A DNA stretch of 64,000 nt from Candidatus Aminicenantota bacterium (GTDB taxonomy: Bacteria > Acidobacteriota > Aminicenantia > Aminicenantales > Saccharicenantaceae): positions 1 to 64,000 of the forward strand of contig JAGNLW010000002.1 in assembly GCA_017999365.1 (NCBI GenBank), in the 5' to 3' direction. Positions 30,441-41,001 of this stretch are shown piece after piece (the stretch's first letter is position 1; each line of letters starts with the position of its first letter). The notes beneath the pieces are model-generated. The model had not been told where the DNA came from. It searched no databases and saw nothing but the letters and a program-made list of their open reading frames with translations. Made by a program: the position numbers and the translations under genes.

Positions 30441-31475
30441 CTACCCCCGCGGCGCCCAGCCGCGGGCCGCGGCGATCATGGCTTTCAGGTTCTCCGGCGG
30501 GGTCTCGGCCGGGATGGCGCAGCCGGCGTTGAGGATGAAGCCGGGGACGCCGGCCCAGACGTCGAGCAGCTCCCGCGTTTTGGCCTCGACCAGGGCCGGC
30601 GTGCCGAGGGCGAGCACGCCGCTCGGGTCGATGTTGCCGATGAAGACGGCTTTCCCCCGCAGGACTTCCCGGGCGGCCCGGACGTCGGTCTTGTAGTCGA
30701 GCTCGAGAGCGTCCGCCCCGGTCGCGAGCATCGGCCCCAGGATGCGCGACGTGTCGCCGCAGATGTGGAGGGCGTAAGGCAGGCCCAGAACGTGGGCCTC
30801 CTCGGCGAGGCGGCGCTCGTAGGGCTGGGCGAACTCCGTGTAGAAGGCCGGCGAGACGAGGTCGGGCCCGGCCGGGCTGTCGCCGTTCGAGACCATGTCG
30901 GCCCCCGTCTCGGCCATCAGCCGGAGGAACGCGGCCGAGGCCTCCGCGCAGTGCCGGAGGAGGGCGTGGGCGTCCTCCCGGTTGGCCGGGTCGACGAGGT
31001 CCATCATCCAGTCGGCCGGGCCGCGGGCCATGGAGGCCAGTGAGAAGGCCGCCTGGTCGCAGTTGCCGCGGATGTAAACCTCGCCGCGGTAGTGGGAGAC
31101 GAGCCGGCGCACGGCCTCGAGCCAGACTTGGATCCGCGGATGGCCGCCGACGTCGGCGGGCGGGAGGTCCCGGGCTTCGGCCAGGCTCCCGAGCATGGCC
31201 CCGGCCGGCCGGGCCGGCATGTCTTCGGGGTGGTCGACCGGCACGCCCAGGGCCTCGGCCAGGACGACCGTGTCGACGTCGACGAGGACGCCGTCGTAGC
31301 CGTAGGTCTCGACGGCCCGGATGAAGCTCTCCGCGATGGCCCCGGGGTCCATCCGGAACCGGCGCTGGGTGAAACCGGCCTCGCGCGCGGCCATGAGGAA
31401 GTTGTGGAGCATGACCGGGACGCGGTCGGGGCGCCGGCCCTCGAGGACGGCCTTGATGCGGAGACGGCCGTTCAC
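30441..31475 (-). CDS. URO-D superfamily methyltransferase-like protein (MtaA/MtbA type) with zinc site
   Basis: A 344-residue TIM-barrel of the uroporphyrinogen decarboxylase superfamily. It has the His-x-Cys motif HICGD (His237, Cys239) and a late Cys (Cys319, NAGCAIP) that bind zinc in MtaA/MtbA-like methylcobamide methyltransferases and are absent from true heme-pathway HemE. A methyl-transfer role is therefore more likely than heme synthesis. GTG at 31475 is the start, overlapping the oxidoreductase stop (GTGA) behind GAGAGGG. It converges on the one-carbon operon, which fits methyl metabolism. The methyl donor and acceptor are unknown. Confidence 0.78.
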   Translation of the reverse strand: MNGRLRIKAVLEGRRPDRVPVMLHNFLMAAREAGFTQRRFRMDPGAIAESFIRAVETYGYDGVLVDVDTVVLAEALGVPVDHPEDMPARPAGAMLGSLAEARDLPPADVGGHPRIQVWLEAVRRLVSHYRGEVYIRGNCDQAAFSLASMARGPADWMMDLVDPANREDAHALLRHCAEASAAFLRLMAETGADMVSNGDSPAGPDLVSPAFYTEFAQPYERRLAEEAHVLGLPYALHICGDTSRILGPMLATGADALELDYKTDVRAAREVLRGKAVFIGNIDPSGVLALGTPALVEAKTRELLDVWAGVPGFILNAGCAIPAETPPENLKAMIAAARGWAPRG

Positions 31476-32863
31476 GCCGATCCCTCTCCCAGGTCCTTTT
31501 CGTCTACGGCGCGCAGCGTGCCGCCCTCCAGGCGGCTCTTCTCCGAGGTGAACCCGATGAGGTGGCTGTCCATGGACTCCTGGAGCGTCGTGGCCAGGAG
31601 GGCCGGGTCGCGCCGGCCGACGGCCTGGACCCAGTCGCGGACGAGGCCGTTGTCGCCGCCGCCGTGCCCCGAATCGACGCGGCCGTGCTCCGCGACCGTC
31701 CACAGGAAGCGCTTCTTCTCGTGGAAGTCGAAGACCTCGAGCCGCTCCTCGTCTCCGACGAGGTCGCCCCGGGTGCCCATGACACGCGTCCGTCGCCCGG
31801 CGTAGGAGGTCAGGCCCTCCATGGCCAGGGTGGCCGTGATGTCCCCGAACTCGAGGTTGACGACCTGGTTGTCGACGACGTCGTTGTCGAGGCGGAAGAC
31901 GCAGCGGCCGTAGTTGGTCCGGGCCAGCCACTCCCGGATGGAGGCGTCGTCGTCGCCCGGCGTGTCCTTGTGGCCGAGCCAGCTCTTGCGGCGGAGGTAG
32001 ATCTCGACGGCCGAGAACGGGCACGAGGCCTCGACGGGACAGCCGTCGGCGCAGCGGGCCGGCGCGCCCGGCGGGGCCATCTCGCGGCGGAAGAGCCGCA
32101 GGGAGCCGAACGACTGGACCTTGGTGCAGGGCCGGTCCGCGAGCCAGCGCAGGATGTCGAGGTCGTGGCAGCACTTCGACAGGAGCATGGGCGTCGACTC
32201 GCGGCTGTTGCGCCAGTTGCCGCGGACGAACGAATGGGACATGTGGATGTGCTCGACCGGCTCCAGGTGCTGGATGCTGACCACGCGGCCGAGGCGCCCG
32301 GAGGCCACGATGTGCCGCATCATCCGGAAGTAGGGCGTGTAGCGCAGGACGTGGCAGACGCCGACGACGGCCCGCCGCGCCGTGGCCCGGTCGAGGATGT
32401 CGCGGCACTGGGACCAGGACGGGGCGATGGCCTTCTCGAGAAGGAGGTCGTAGCCCTTCTCCAGGGCGGCCATGGCCGGGCCGTAATGGAGGCGGTCGGG
32501 CGTCGTGACGATGATGGCGTCGCAGAACTTGGGTCCGTCGAAGGCCCGCTCCCAGGTCGGCCAACGGCGCTCCGGCGGGATGCCGTGGCCCTCGGCCAGG
32601 AAGGCGTTCCGGTACGGGATGGGCTCGGCCACGCCGACGATCCGGAGCTCCTCCGGGAAGGCCTTGGCGTAGGCGGCATAGACGCGGCCGCGGCCGCCGG
32701 CGCCCATGACGGCCGCCGTGACCGGCCGGGCGGGCTTCTGCCATTCGAACGGGACGGGCGCTCCCAGCGGATGGGGTCGGCCGGCCTGGGCCCGGACGAG
32801 TTTATAGGAAGCCGCGGTGCCGGCCGCGGCGCCGAGGGTCATCAGCGCGTCCCTGCGTTTCAT
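31472..32863 (-). CDS. Gfo/Idh/MocA family oxidoreductase with Tat-type signal
   Basis: A 463-residue NAD(P)-dependent sugar or inositol dehydrogenase-like protein. The start at 32863 (MKRRDALMTLGAAAG) follows AGGAGG and gives a twin-arginine-like leader. The dinucleotide fold has VMGAGGRGRVYAAYA, and EKAIAPS takes the place of the EKP motif. CCHDLDILRWL corresponds to the catalytic GxHxxD region. A compact Cys cluster (CADGCPVEASC) is typical of one subgroup and may bind metal. It is translationally coupled to the methyltransferase-like gene downstream. The substrate is unknown. Confidence 0.85.
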   Translation of the reverse strand: MKRRDALMTLGAAAGTAASYKLVRAQAGRPHPLGAPVPFEWQKPARPVTAAVMGAGGRGRVYAAYAKAFPEELRIVGVAEPIPYRNAFLAEGHGIPPERRWPTWERAFDGPKFCDAIIVTTPDRLHYGPAMAALEKGYDLLLEKAIAPSWSQCRDILDRATARRAVVGVCHVLRYTPYFRMMRHIVASGRLGRVVSIQHLEPVEHIHMSHSFVRGNWRNSRESTPMLLSKCCHDLDILRWLADRPCTKVQSFGSLRLFRREMAPPGAPARCADGCPVEASCPFSAVEIYLRRKSWLGHKDTPGDDDASIREWLARTNYGRCVFRLDNDVVDNQVVNLEFGDITATLAMEGLTSYAGRRTRVMGTRGDLVGDEERLEVFDFHEKKRFLWTVAEHGRVDSGHGGGDNGLVRDWVQAVGRRDPALLATTLQESMDSHLIGFTSEKSRLEGGTLRAVDEKDLGEGSA

Positions 32864-38762: not shown

Positions 38763-40385
38763 TCATTCCTGGGCCGGCAGGAGCTTGTCCTTGTCGAGCG
38801 ACGAGCGGCCGAAGATGCCCAGGACACCCTTCAGCCCGACGCTCATGACGATGTTGACGAAGAAGGCCAGGAAGCCGACCGCCAGCAGCCCGCCGCAGAG
38901 CGCGGCCAGGATCATGTAGACGTCGAACTCTCCGTTCGCGTAGATCGTCCGGCGCAGCATGCCCTGCAGCCCGGCCATGCCCATGAACGCCCCCATGCCG
39001 ATGCCGCCGACGAGATGGGCCCAGAAGTGGACGTTGGCCAGCTTCTGGCTGTAGAGCTTGGCCCCGTTGGTCAGGATGGGGAAGAGGATGTAGATGGCCG
39101 AGTACAGGGTCATGGTCAGGCCGACCAGGATGGCCACGTGGACGTGGGGCCCGATGACCCATTGGGTGTTGTGGAGGATGCGGTTGAGGCCGACGTCGGC
39201 CTGGATGATGCCGGCCGGGACGCCGAGGCCGAACCCGAGCAGGCCGCCGAGCAGGAACTTCAGCTCGTTGGACATCTTGAGCGGCCGGGCGCTCCAGAGC
39301 GTCACCAGGGTGATGAAGAAGGCCAGGCCCTGGGTGATGAGCTCGAAGGCCGTGACCATCTCGCCCGAGAGGACCTTGAGGACGGACGGCTGGGCCTGGT
39401 CGGACAGGAGGTGGTGCGACCAGACCGTCCAGGAGACGACGAGCTCGACGAGCAGGGCGGCCCGGGCCACGTTCTCCATGAACAGCTTCTTGCCCGTGAT
39501 GAGGGTCGCCAGCAGGTACCAGGTCCCGGCGACGAAGATGAGGACCAGGCCGTCGGCCACCAGGTCGAGGCCCCACCAGTACCAGTTCTTGTAGAGGAGG
39601 GCGTCGACGGCCGTGTGCTTGAGCGAGTGGCCCAGGAGCTCGGCGACCATGTAGACGAGGATGAGGACGCCGGTGAACAGGATGACCCCCGAGTTGAGGG
39701 CCACGTCGACCGTGCCCCGGGCCACCGCGGCGACCGGCAGGGGCACGAGGTGCTCGGTCTTCTTCTTCCGGAAGAAGTTCCTGACGGCCGTGAGGCCCAG
39801 AGCCGAGCCCAGGAGGGCGCCGGCCGGCTGTTTGTCCCAGCCCTTGGGCGTGTAGGTGATGGTCTTGAAGATGTTGACGACGAAGAAGACTGTCCCCAGC
39901 ATGACCAGGGCGATGCCCAGGATGAAGAAGGCCCCGCCAAGGGCGCTGAACTGGGTGAAATCGGCCGGCAGGGGCCAGTAGAGCGTGTAGAGCGGCGCGT
40001 AGTGGGTGAAGAAGCCGGCCGTCCAGAAGACGGCCGTGCCGCCGGCCAGGAGCCAGAACGTGGCCAGGGCCAGGCGGTAGCTCCAGATGGGCTTCTTCAT
40101 CAGGAACGGCACCAGGAACAGGAAGGCCCCGAAGACGATCGAGTAGCTCGAGCCGAAGATGCCGACGAGCGGGTGGGCCGTCATCATGGCGAAGAACTGG
40201 TCGGTCTTGATGAACGGCACGGGCGTGACCTCGAAGATGCGCATGAGCATGCCCTCGATGAGGGCGAAGGCGTAGTAGACGAGGCCGACGACGACGAACC
40301 GCAGGGTCAGCTTCTGCATGGGGGTCAGGGTCTTGGGCTTGAACAGCCCCTGCTCACCGTTGAGGAAGGTTTGGACGAGGCTCAT
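38763..40385 (-). CDS. heme-copper oxidase superfamily subunit I, NO reductase-like with altered CuB site
   Basis: A 540-residue membrane protein with about 14 helices. Heme ligands are present: His71 (MTAHPLVGIF), and His414 with His416 (GPHVHVA). Two CuB histidines are present in SHHLL (His324, His325). The helix VI position that normally supplies the third CuB ligand (HPEVY in oxidases, HLWVEG in NorB) reads WWGLDLVADG, with Asp274 for His and Asp278 for the NorB Glu. There is no helix VI Tyr. This argues against ordinary O2 reduction and for a divergent nitric oxide reductase. It is co-transcribed with a CuA-less subunit II nine bases upstream. Confidence 0.85.
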   Translation of the reverse strand: MSLVQTFLNGEQGLFKPKTLTPMQKLTLRFVVVGLVYYAFALIEGMLMRIFEVTPVPFIKTDQFFAMMTAHPLVGIFGSSYSIVFGAFLFLVPFLMKKPIWSYRLALATFWLLAGGTAVFWTAGFFTHYAPLYTLYWPLPADFTQFSALGGAFFILGIALVMLGTVFFVVNIFKTITYTPKGWDKQPAGALLGSALGLTAVRNFFRKKKTEHLVPLPVAAVARGTVDVALNSGVILFTGVLILVYMVAELLGHSLKHTAVDALLYKNWYWWGLDLVADGLVLIFVAGTWYLLATLITGKKLFMENVARAALLVELVVSWTVWSHHLLSDQAQPSVLKVLSGEMVTAFELITQGLAFFITLVTLWSARPLKMSNELKFLLGGLLGFGLGVPAGIIQADVGLNRILHNTQWVIGPHVHVAILVGLTMTLYSAIYILFPILTNGAKLYSQKLANVHFWAHLVGGIGMGAFMGMAGLQGMLRRTIYANGEFDVYMILAALCGGLLAVGFLAFFVNIVMSVGLKGVLGIFGRSSLDKDKLLPAQE

Positions 40386-40394
40386 GGGTTCCCC

Positions 40395-40949
40395 CTATCT
40401 CGCTTCCAGGACCTCGAGGGCGTCCTTGACGATCATGCCGACGCCCTTGGGGCCCGAGTACTCGGTCGACCGGACGGTGTACAGGCCCGGCTCCGTGAAC
40501 GTCCAGACGACATCGTTCCGGTGGCCCGGCACGACCTGCATCTGGAAGACCATGGTGTTGTCGGGGCGGAAGACGCCGAAGCCGTAGGTCAGATCGGCCG
40601 AGTCGACCTCGAAGCGGACCGTCTCGCCGACCCGGGCGACCATGCGCTCGGCCGGGAGCTCGAAACGATGGTCCGCGACCTTGATCGCGAAGGTCCGGTC
40701 GGCCTGGACCGCGTCCCGGTCGAGGTCCGGCTTGACCCAGGGGATGGTCAGCGAGGTCGTGATGTGGAGCGAAAATCCGAGTACGGCCAGCGCGGCTACG
40801 AAGGCGTAGAACAGCCCGGGCTTCATCCCCTTGCCCTTGCCGGCCTGGGTCAGCCGCCAGCCGAACCAGCCGACGAGCAGGATGATGACGACGGCGTAGA
40901 TCGTGTAGCCCAGGGTTTGGCCGAAGAGGACGATCTTTGAGTCGACCAT
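40395..40949 (-). CDS. cytochrome oxidase subunit II-like cupredoxin without CuA ligands
   Basis: A 184-residue subunit with two N-terminal helices (about residues 5-30 and 46-68) and a periplasmic cupredoxin domain. The CuA loop normally reads CxxxCGxxHxxM. Here it reads STEYSGPKGVGM (161-172), with both Cys replaced by Ser and the His by Gly; the upstream His is Tyr (DLTYGF). CuA therefore cannot form, and electrons probably come from quinol rather than cytochrome c. The start at 40949 (MVDSKIVL) follows AAGGAGG. Promoter TTGACG-17-TATCAT lies 24 bases upstream. Confidence 0.87.
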   Translation of the reverse strand: MVDSKIVLFGQTLGYTIYAVVIILLVGWFGWRLTQAGKGKGMKPGLFYAFVAALAVLGFSLHITTSLTIPWVKPDLDRDAVQADRTFAIKVADHRFELPAERMVARVGETVRFEVDSADLTYGFGVFRPDNTMVFQMQVVPGHRNDVVWTFTEPGLYTVRSTEYSGPKGVGMIVKDALEVLEAR

Positions 40950-40972: not shown

Positions 40973-41001
40973 ATGATATCGGCACTTCCCGGGGGCGTCA
41001 A
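40973..41001 (-). promoter_or_regulatory. promoter of the heme-copper oxidase-like operon
   Basis: TTGACG (41001-40996) and TATCAT (40978-40973) are 17 bases apart on the minus strand, giving a short leader before the AAGGAGG ribosome-binding site. No palindromic regulator site is evident next to it. Confidence 0.6.

Follow-up and report, generated by a model that had tools for sequence, protein, structure and literature searches.

A heme-copper oxidase pair with aspartate in place of a CuB histidine and a subunit II lacking CuA: a candidate quinol-dependent nitric oxide reductase

Gene pair and locus

The 64,000-nucleotide stretch of Candidatus Aminicenantota DNA analysed here (contig JAGNLW010000002.1, positions 1 to 64,000; "the window") contains two minus-strand genes that encode subunits II and I of a heme-copper oxidase (HCO), separated by 9 bases (Table 1). 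The start of subunit II is placed at the Met codon at 40949; a longer GTG start at 40985 is unsupported by homologues. A C69 peptidase gene follows the pair and a DUF3795 gene lies upstream; neither an N-oxide gene nor an Rrf2 gene is found beside the pair in the window.

Table 1. Features of the HCO gene pair in the window
Feature	Position	Strand	Basis
Subunit I, HCO catalytic subunit, 540 aa	38763..40385	-	ORF; Pfam COX1 6.6e-52; Foldseek
His71, low-spin heme ligand	40173..40175	-	
Asp274 (codon GAC), helix VI CuB/FeB His position	39564..39566	-	Alignments
Asp278 (codon GAC), at Tyr (O2 reductase) / Glu (cNOR, qNOR) / Asn (sNOR) position	39552..39554	-	
His324-His325, remaining two non-heme metal ligands	39411..39416	-	
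Glu348, aligned to second active-site Glu of cNOR/qNOR	39342..39344	-	85/85
Pro413-His414-Val415-His416: extra Pro, proximal heme His, low-spin heme His	39138..39149	-	
Subunit II, 184 aa from Met, two predicted TM helices and cupredoxin domain without CuA	40395..40949	-	
Tyr122 of subunit II, replacing first CuA His (DLTYGF vs DVLHGF)	40584..40586	-	
STEYSGPKGVGM, site of lost CuA motif CxExCGxxHxxM, subunit II	40434..40469	-	

Subunit I matches Pfam COX1 (6.6e-52) and scores far under all NCBIfam equivalog cut-offs. Its AlphaFold2 model (pLDDT 79, pTM 0.83) finds subunit I of aa3 and bo3 enzymes as the top PDB matches in Foldseek (E ~1e-12). Because the active-site loops of the model have pLDDT below 50, no ligand geometry was drawn from it. 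For subunit II, a Pfam search gave no match, while a profile of the subunit II family matches CuA domains in the PDB, and the predicted structure (pLDDT 84) has cupredoxin subunits II as its top PDB matches.

Elsewhere in the window, positions 30441-32744 encode a 767-aa protein in which a URO-D (methyltransferase-type) domain occupies only the C-terminal half (residues 429-762).

Family members and their distribution

A scan of species genomes yielded 317 relatives, of which the best 80 were kept for analysis. These best 80 of 317 show 74-82% identity and come mostly from Bacteroidota, with others from Ignavibacteriota, Acidobacteriota, Chloroflexota, Gemmatimonadota, Fidelibacterota, and Chlorobiota. 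Together with whole-genome matches, and with the window included, they make up an alignment of 85 rows (one pair identical) that spans at least seven phyla. Nearly all carriers are metagenome-assembled, so single phylum placements may be binning errors. The gene for subunit II lies upstream of that for subunit I in 84 of the 85 cases; in the remaining case the contig ends there.

Within the host genus, two of the 13 genomes searched carry the family. Their subunits I (38763-40385 in the window) are 79% identical and fall, with low support, in different parts of the family tree, suggesting separate acquisitions. Horizontal transfer of the family is likely; the plasmid and viral collections searched contain no family member.

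Active site of subunit I

The register of the active site was taken from phmmer alignments against PDB chains, an alignment with 48 other HCOs drawn from search matches, and an alignment with named references (MAFFT L-INS-i). In these alignments, helix VI of subunit I reads D274-x3-D278 where A- and B-type O2 reductases have H-x3-Y, cNOR and qNOR have H-x3-E, and sNOR has H-x3-N. In particular, the Asn at +4 of Ruegeria (Silicibacter) sNOR aligns with Asp278, and the published table (PMC8756737) likewise gives H-x3-N for sNOR, a check on the register. A shifted alignment giving back a third histidine is thus ruled out by three agreeing alignments and four reference families, and the proposal of the sequence-only reading, that Asp274 occupies the position of a CuB histidine and Asp278 that of the NorB glutamate, is confirmed.

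The heme ligands His71, His414, and His416 and the CuB histidines His324 and His325, which the same reading had described as retained, are invariant, as are Asp274 and Asp278, in all 85 rows (window, best 80 of 317, and whole-genome matches). Of the COX1 fold with its six-histidine HCO signature, the fold, three heme histidines, and two metal histidines are present, and Asp274 stands for the sixth histidine in 85/85. Two further residues are equally constant. Glu348 is aligned with the second active-site glutamate of cNOR and qNOR, at a position that is non-acidic in the A, B, C, and sNOR sequences compared; it lies 23 residues past the second histidine, versus 21 in cNOR/qNOR, a spacing consistent with a longer loop. 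Pro413 is an extra residue immediately ahead of the heme-ligand pair H414-V-H416. The polar positions of the B-type K channel correspond to Ala355 and Ile358 (from the alignment, the model being too poor for a structural check).

Subunit II and loss of CuA

The sequence-only reading had held that subunit II keeps a cupredoxin fold and has lost CuA, and the family alignment bears this out. Specifically, four CuA ligands are replaced (His by Tyr122, Cys by Ser161, Cys by Ser165, and His by Gly169), and the four replacing residues are invariant in 85/85 aligned rows, window included; the Met is retained in 79/85. No quinol site was identified.

Loss of canonical ligands from both subunits could be taken as the mark of a decayed, non-catalytic relative. 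This is extremely unlikely, since every replacing residue is invariant across 85 orthologues at 74-82% identity from several phyla; invariance of this kind in both subunits rules out sequencing error and decay as the source of the replacements.

By sequence, the nearest relative of subunit II is the sNOR subunit II: scores are 63, 57, and 47 bits for sNOR-type subunits II, against maxima of 34 for B types and 18 for A types, and in the alignments compared a four-residue loop of subunit II is common only to sNOR.

Phylogenetic position of subunit I

In a maximum-likelihood tree of 43 subunit I sequences, the family sits by itself at the end of a long stem (1.68 changes per column), within an assemblage of A types, B types, and sNOR (support 99/98) and outside every named group. 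Constrained placements were compared by the AU test. Nesting in C-type oxidases (p 0.002) and nesting in cNOR/qNOR (p 0.03) are rejected; joining sNOR costs 1.8 log units (p 0.34), joining B costs 4.8 (p 0.235), and joining A costs 5.3 (p 0.21), the last two not being rejected. The position of subunit I is thus weakly resolved, and the affinity of subunit II to sNOR is clearer. In the tree the family lies outside the A, B, and C clades, with A and B types each 100% monophyletic without it.

The long stem, the extra Pro413 at the proximal heme ligand, and a gap in scores among 396 Bacteroidota genomes, where full-length family members exceed 1000 bits and the next HCOs fall below 60, would suit a distinct HCO family, other than gNOR, with a different small molecule as its substrate or signal. 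We regard this as quite unlikely, since the aspartate at the active-site position and the quinol-type subunit II match the published description of gNOR and subunit II is sNOR-like.

Regulator and neighbouring genes

An Rrf2 regulator gene lies immediately upstream of the pair in 50 of the 80 loci with enough sequence, and its product has a conserved C-x6-C-x5-C-x2-H motif. The protein scores under every equivalog cut-off, those of IscR and NsrR included, and resembles IscR as much as NsrR, so that it is no proof of NO sensing. The cNOR locus of Thermus and the sNOR locus of Ruegeria also have an Rrf2 gene beside them. Apart from the pair and its Rrf2 gene, neighbours differ among loci, and a conserved denitrification operon was not found; recurrent neighbours, each in a few loci, are DUF6448, hemerythrin, Crp/Fnr, and a short COX1/NnrS-like protein.

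Two of these recurrences can be described further. In Ignavibacteria, a membrane protein of about 154 aa whose COX1 matches are weak (NnrS is matched as well in two of the three cases) is encoded directly upstream of subunit II (L075:340-801, L072:2357-2812, and L113:6864-7325). DUF6448 recurs near the pair (L102:3231-3887 and L104:3226-3951) and is once fused to a hemerythrin domain (L047:1346-2404).

Gene content of the host and other carriers

Host gene content was tested family by family in an assembly that is 95% complete, so absences are strong, not final. The family member is the sole HCO of the host genome; four other carriers (G291, G436, G448, and G451) likewise have no further HCO. 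The host genome gave no match for heme-o synthase (CtaB) and no Sco protein above cut-off, which, unless the genes are missing from the assembly, points to a heme b enzyme. The simplest inference suggested by this content is a heme b/b3 enzyme with no need of Sco-delivered copper, with, possibly, iron at the His2-Asp site. NosZ and NrfA were not found in the host genome, and the host is not a denitrifier by either. Among carriers, full-length NrfA occurs in 15/32 and NosZ above cut-off in 5/33; some carriers therefore make or handle N-oxides.

Cytochrome bd is present in the host, and for this reason the earlier description of the bacterium as probably anaerobic is only partly right. It also bears on the possibility that the pair is a quinol O2 reductase with an unusual metal site that shields an anaerobe from traces of O2. 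The fold, the distant sequence similarity to A and B types, and the unrejected placements with A or B agree with such a role, and many carriers are, as inferred from record titles, sediment bacteria that may meet O2. We nevertheless consider it unlikely: the Tyr and one CuB His that are standard in A and B types are absent in 85/85, and the host already has cytochrome bd for O2, with no match for heme-o synthase and no Sco above cut-off.

Proposed function and mechanism

In the proposed gNOR branch of NO reductases, a ligand histidine is reportedly changed to aspartate, and the window subunit I has Asp274 at a ligand position. gNOR (norGH) has been proposed as the NO reductase, quinone-oxidising and non-electrogenic, of Sulfurimonas, Sulfurovum, Persephonella, and Ca. 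Methylomirabilis (PMC8756737, PMC8906906, PMC6094997); its published traits are an active-site residue D, no proton channel, and a cupredoxin subunit II (PMC8756737, PMC8906906); the D is an Asp at the Tyr/Glu position of the active site (PMC8756737 Table A4). The window family has Asp278 at that position in 85/85, the register being verified against families that have Y, E, or N there; its two subunits include a cupredoxin subunit II; and the absence of CuA, a sequence correlate of a quinone donor, is seen in 85/85, the donor itself being predicted. Because these published traits match (PMC8756737, PMC8906906), we file the pair provisionally as gNOR, by description. The lead toward gNOR in the sequence-only reading is to that extent supported, in part: the match covers the residue D, the cupredoxin subunit II, and, as a prediction, the quinone donor.

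Taken together, the missing Tyr, the one missing copper His, the three carboxylates gained, the lost CuA, and the heme-b-only hosts suggest that NO reduction is driven by quinol, similar to that of qNOR, on an sNOR-like scaffold. We therefore favour, as reasonably probable, the reading that the pair is a quinol:NO reductase, of the kind proposed as gNOR, that converts NO to N2O; this kind of enzyme is predicted and little studied. Quinol would pass electrons directly to a low-spin heme b (H71, H416), since subunit II has no CuA, and from there electrons would reach a high-spin heme b3 (proximal H414) and an adjacent non-heme metal. The ligands of this metal would be H324, H325, and Asp274, a set of two histidines and one carboxylate that would suit iron better than copper. 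The parts of the two active-site glutamates of cNOR/qNOR, in metal tuning and proton passage, may be taken by Asp278 and Glu348, and two NO would be joined to N2O at the heme b3/non-heme metal centre. In a host with neither NosZ nor NrfA, the likely purpose would be removal of outside NO, not respiration; the role of the predicted NO reductase is thus probably NO detoxification.

Conversion of NO to another product, for example a dismutation of 2 NO to N2 + O2, would by analogy fit the change of a ligand His and of the catalytic Glu, since in putative NO dismutases Asn replaces one ligand His and Gln replaces the catalytic Glu, and a proper quinol site is lacking (PMC3413370). This is very improbable: putative NO dismutases belong to the qNOR group and have neutral amides, whereas the window family does not group with qNOR and combines three invariant carboxylates with a cupredoxin subunit II.

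A bolder version of NO reduction has a modest, minority chance of being correct. It holds that the pair represents an HCO family of its own, separate from the named NOR groups, with heme b3, iron on two His and one Asp, and two more carboxylates, forming an NO-reducing centre of independent origin that spread horizontally among anaerobes of several phyla.

If the family does reduce NO, the capacity to make N2O extends to many anaerobes that are likely now scored as having no NO reductase, chiefly Bacteroidota and Ignavibacteriota from sediments and lakes; the family genes have probably been annotated as cytochrome oxidases. The site would then test whether a two-histidine-one-carboxylate metal beside a heme can join two NO, and hosts in which the pair is the sole HCO offer a clean system for such a test.

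Comparison with known systems

The pair shares with B-type (ba3) and A-type oxygen reductases the fold, the heme ligands, the His-His pair, and a cupredoxin subunit II. Those enzymes have H-x3-Y and CuA; the window subunit I has neither H-x3-Y nor three CuB histidines.

Like cNOR and qNOR, the window enzyme has an acid four residues after the helix VI ligand and another in helix VIII, and it is predicted to have heme b and probably iron. The differences are that cNOR and qNOR have a third His ligand and a subunit II that is a cytochrome c or fused, and that D-x3-D stands in place of H-x3-E; the grouping with NorB is rejected (p 0.03).

sNOR (norSY; for example on the Ruegeria pomeroyi megaplasmid, with relatives in Thermomicrobium and an acidobacterium; Ruegeria locus L161) has the subunit II closest to that of the pair, shares its long loop, and is likewise an HCO of the A/B side, with an Rrf2 gene next to the Ruegeria gene. 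It differs in keeping the CuB His (H-x3-N) and CuA, for which the window family has D-x3-D and a lost CuA, and the Ruegeria operon has a Sco gene. Separately, an Acidobacteriota genome (G070; loci L160, 3243-5473, and L031) encodes a CuA-bearing sNOR-like HCO pair in which helix VI has H-x3-E (HVTAE) instead of H-x3-N, followed by a Sco-like gene; this pair is possibly another NOR variant.

Compared by published description, not sequence, gNOR resembles the pair in the residue D, in a two-subunit make-up that includes a cupredoxin subunit II, and in quinol as the predicted donor; the difference is in the hosts, which here are Bacteroidota, Ignavibacteriota, Acidobacteriota, and others.
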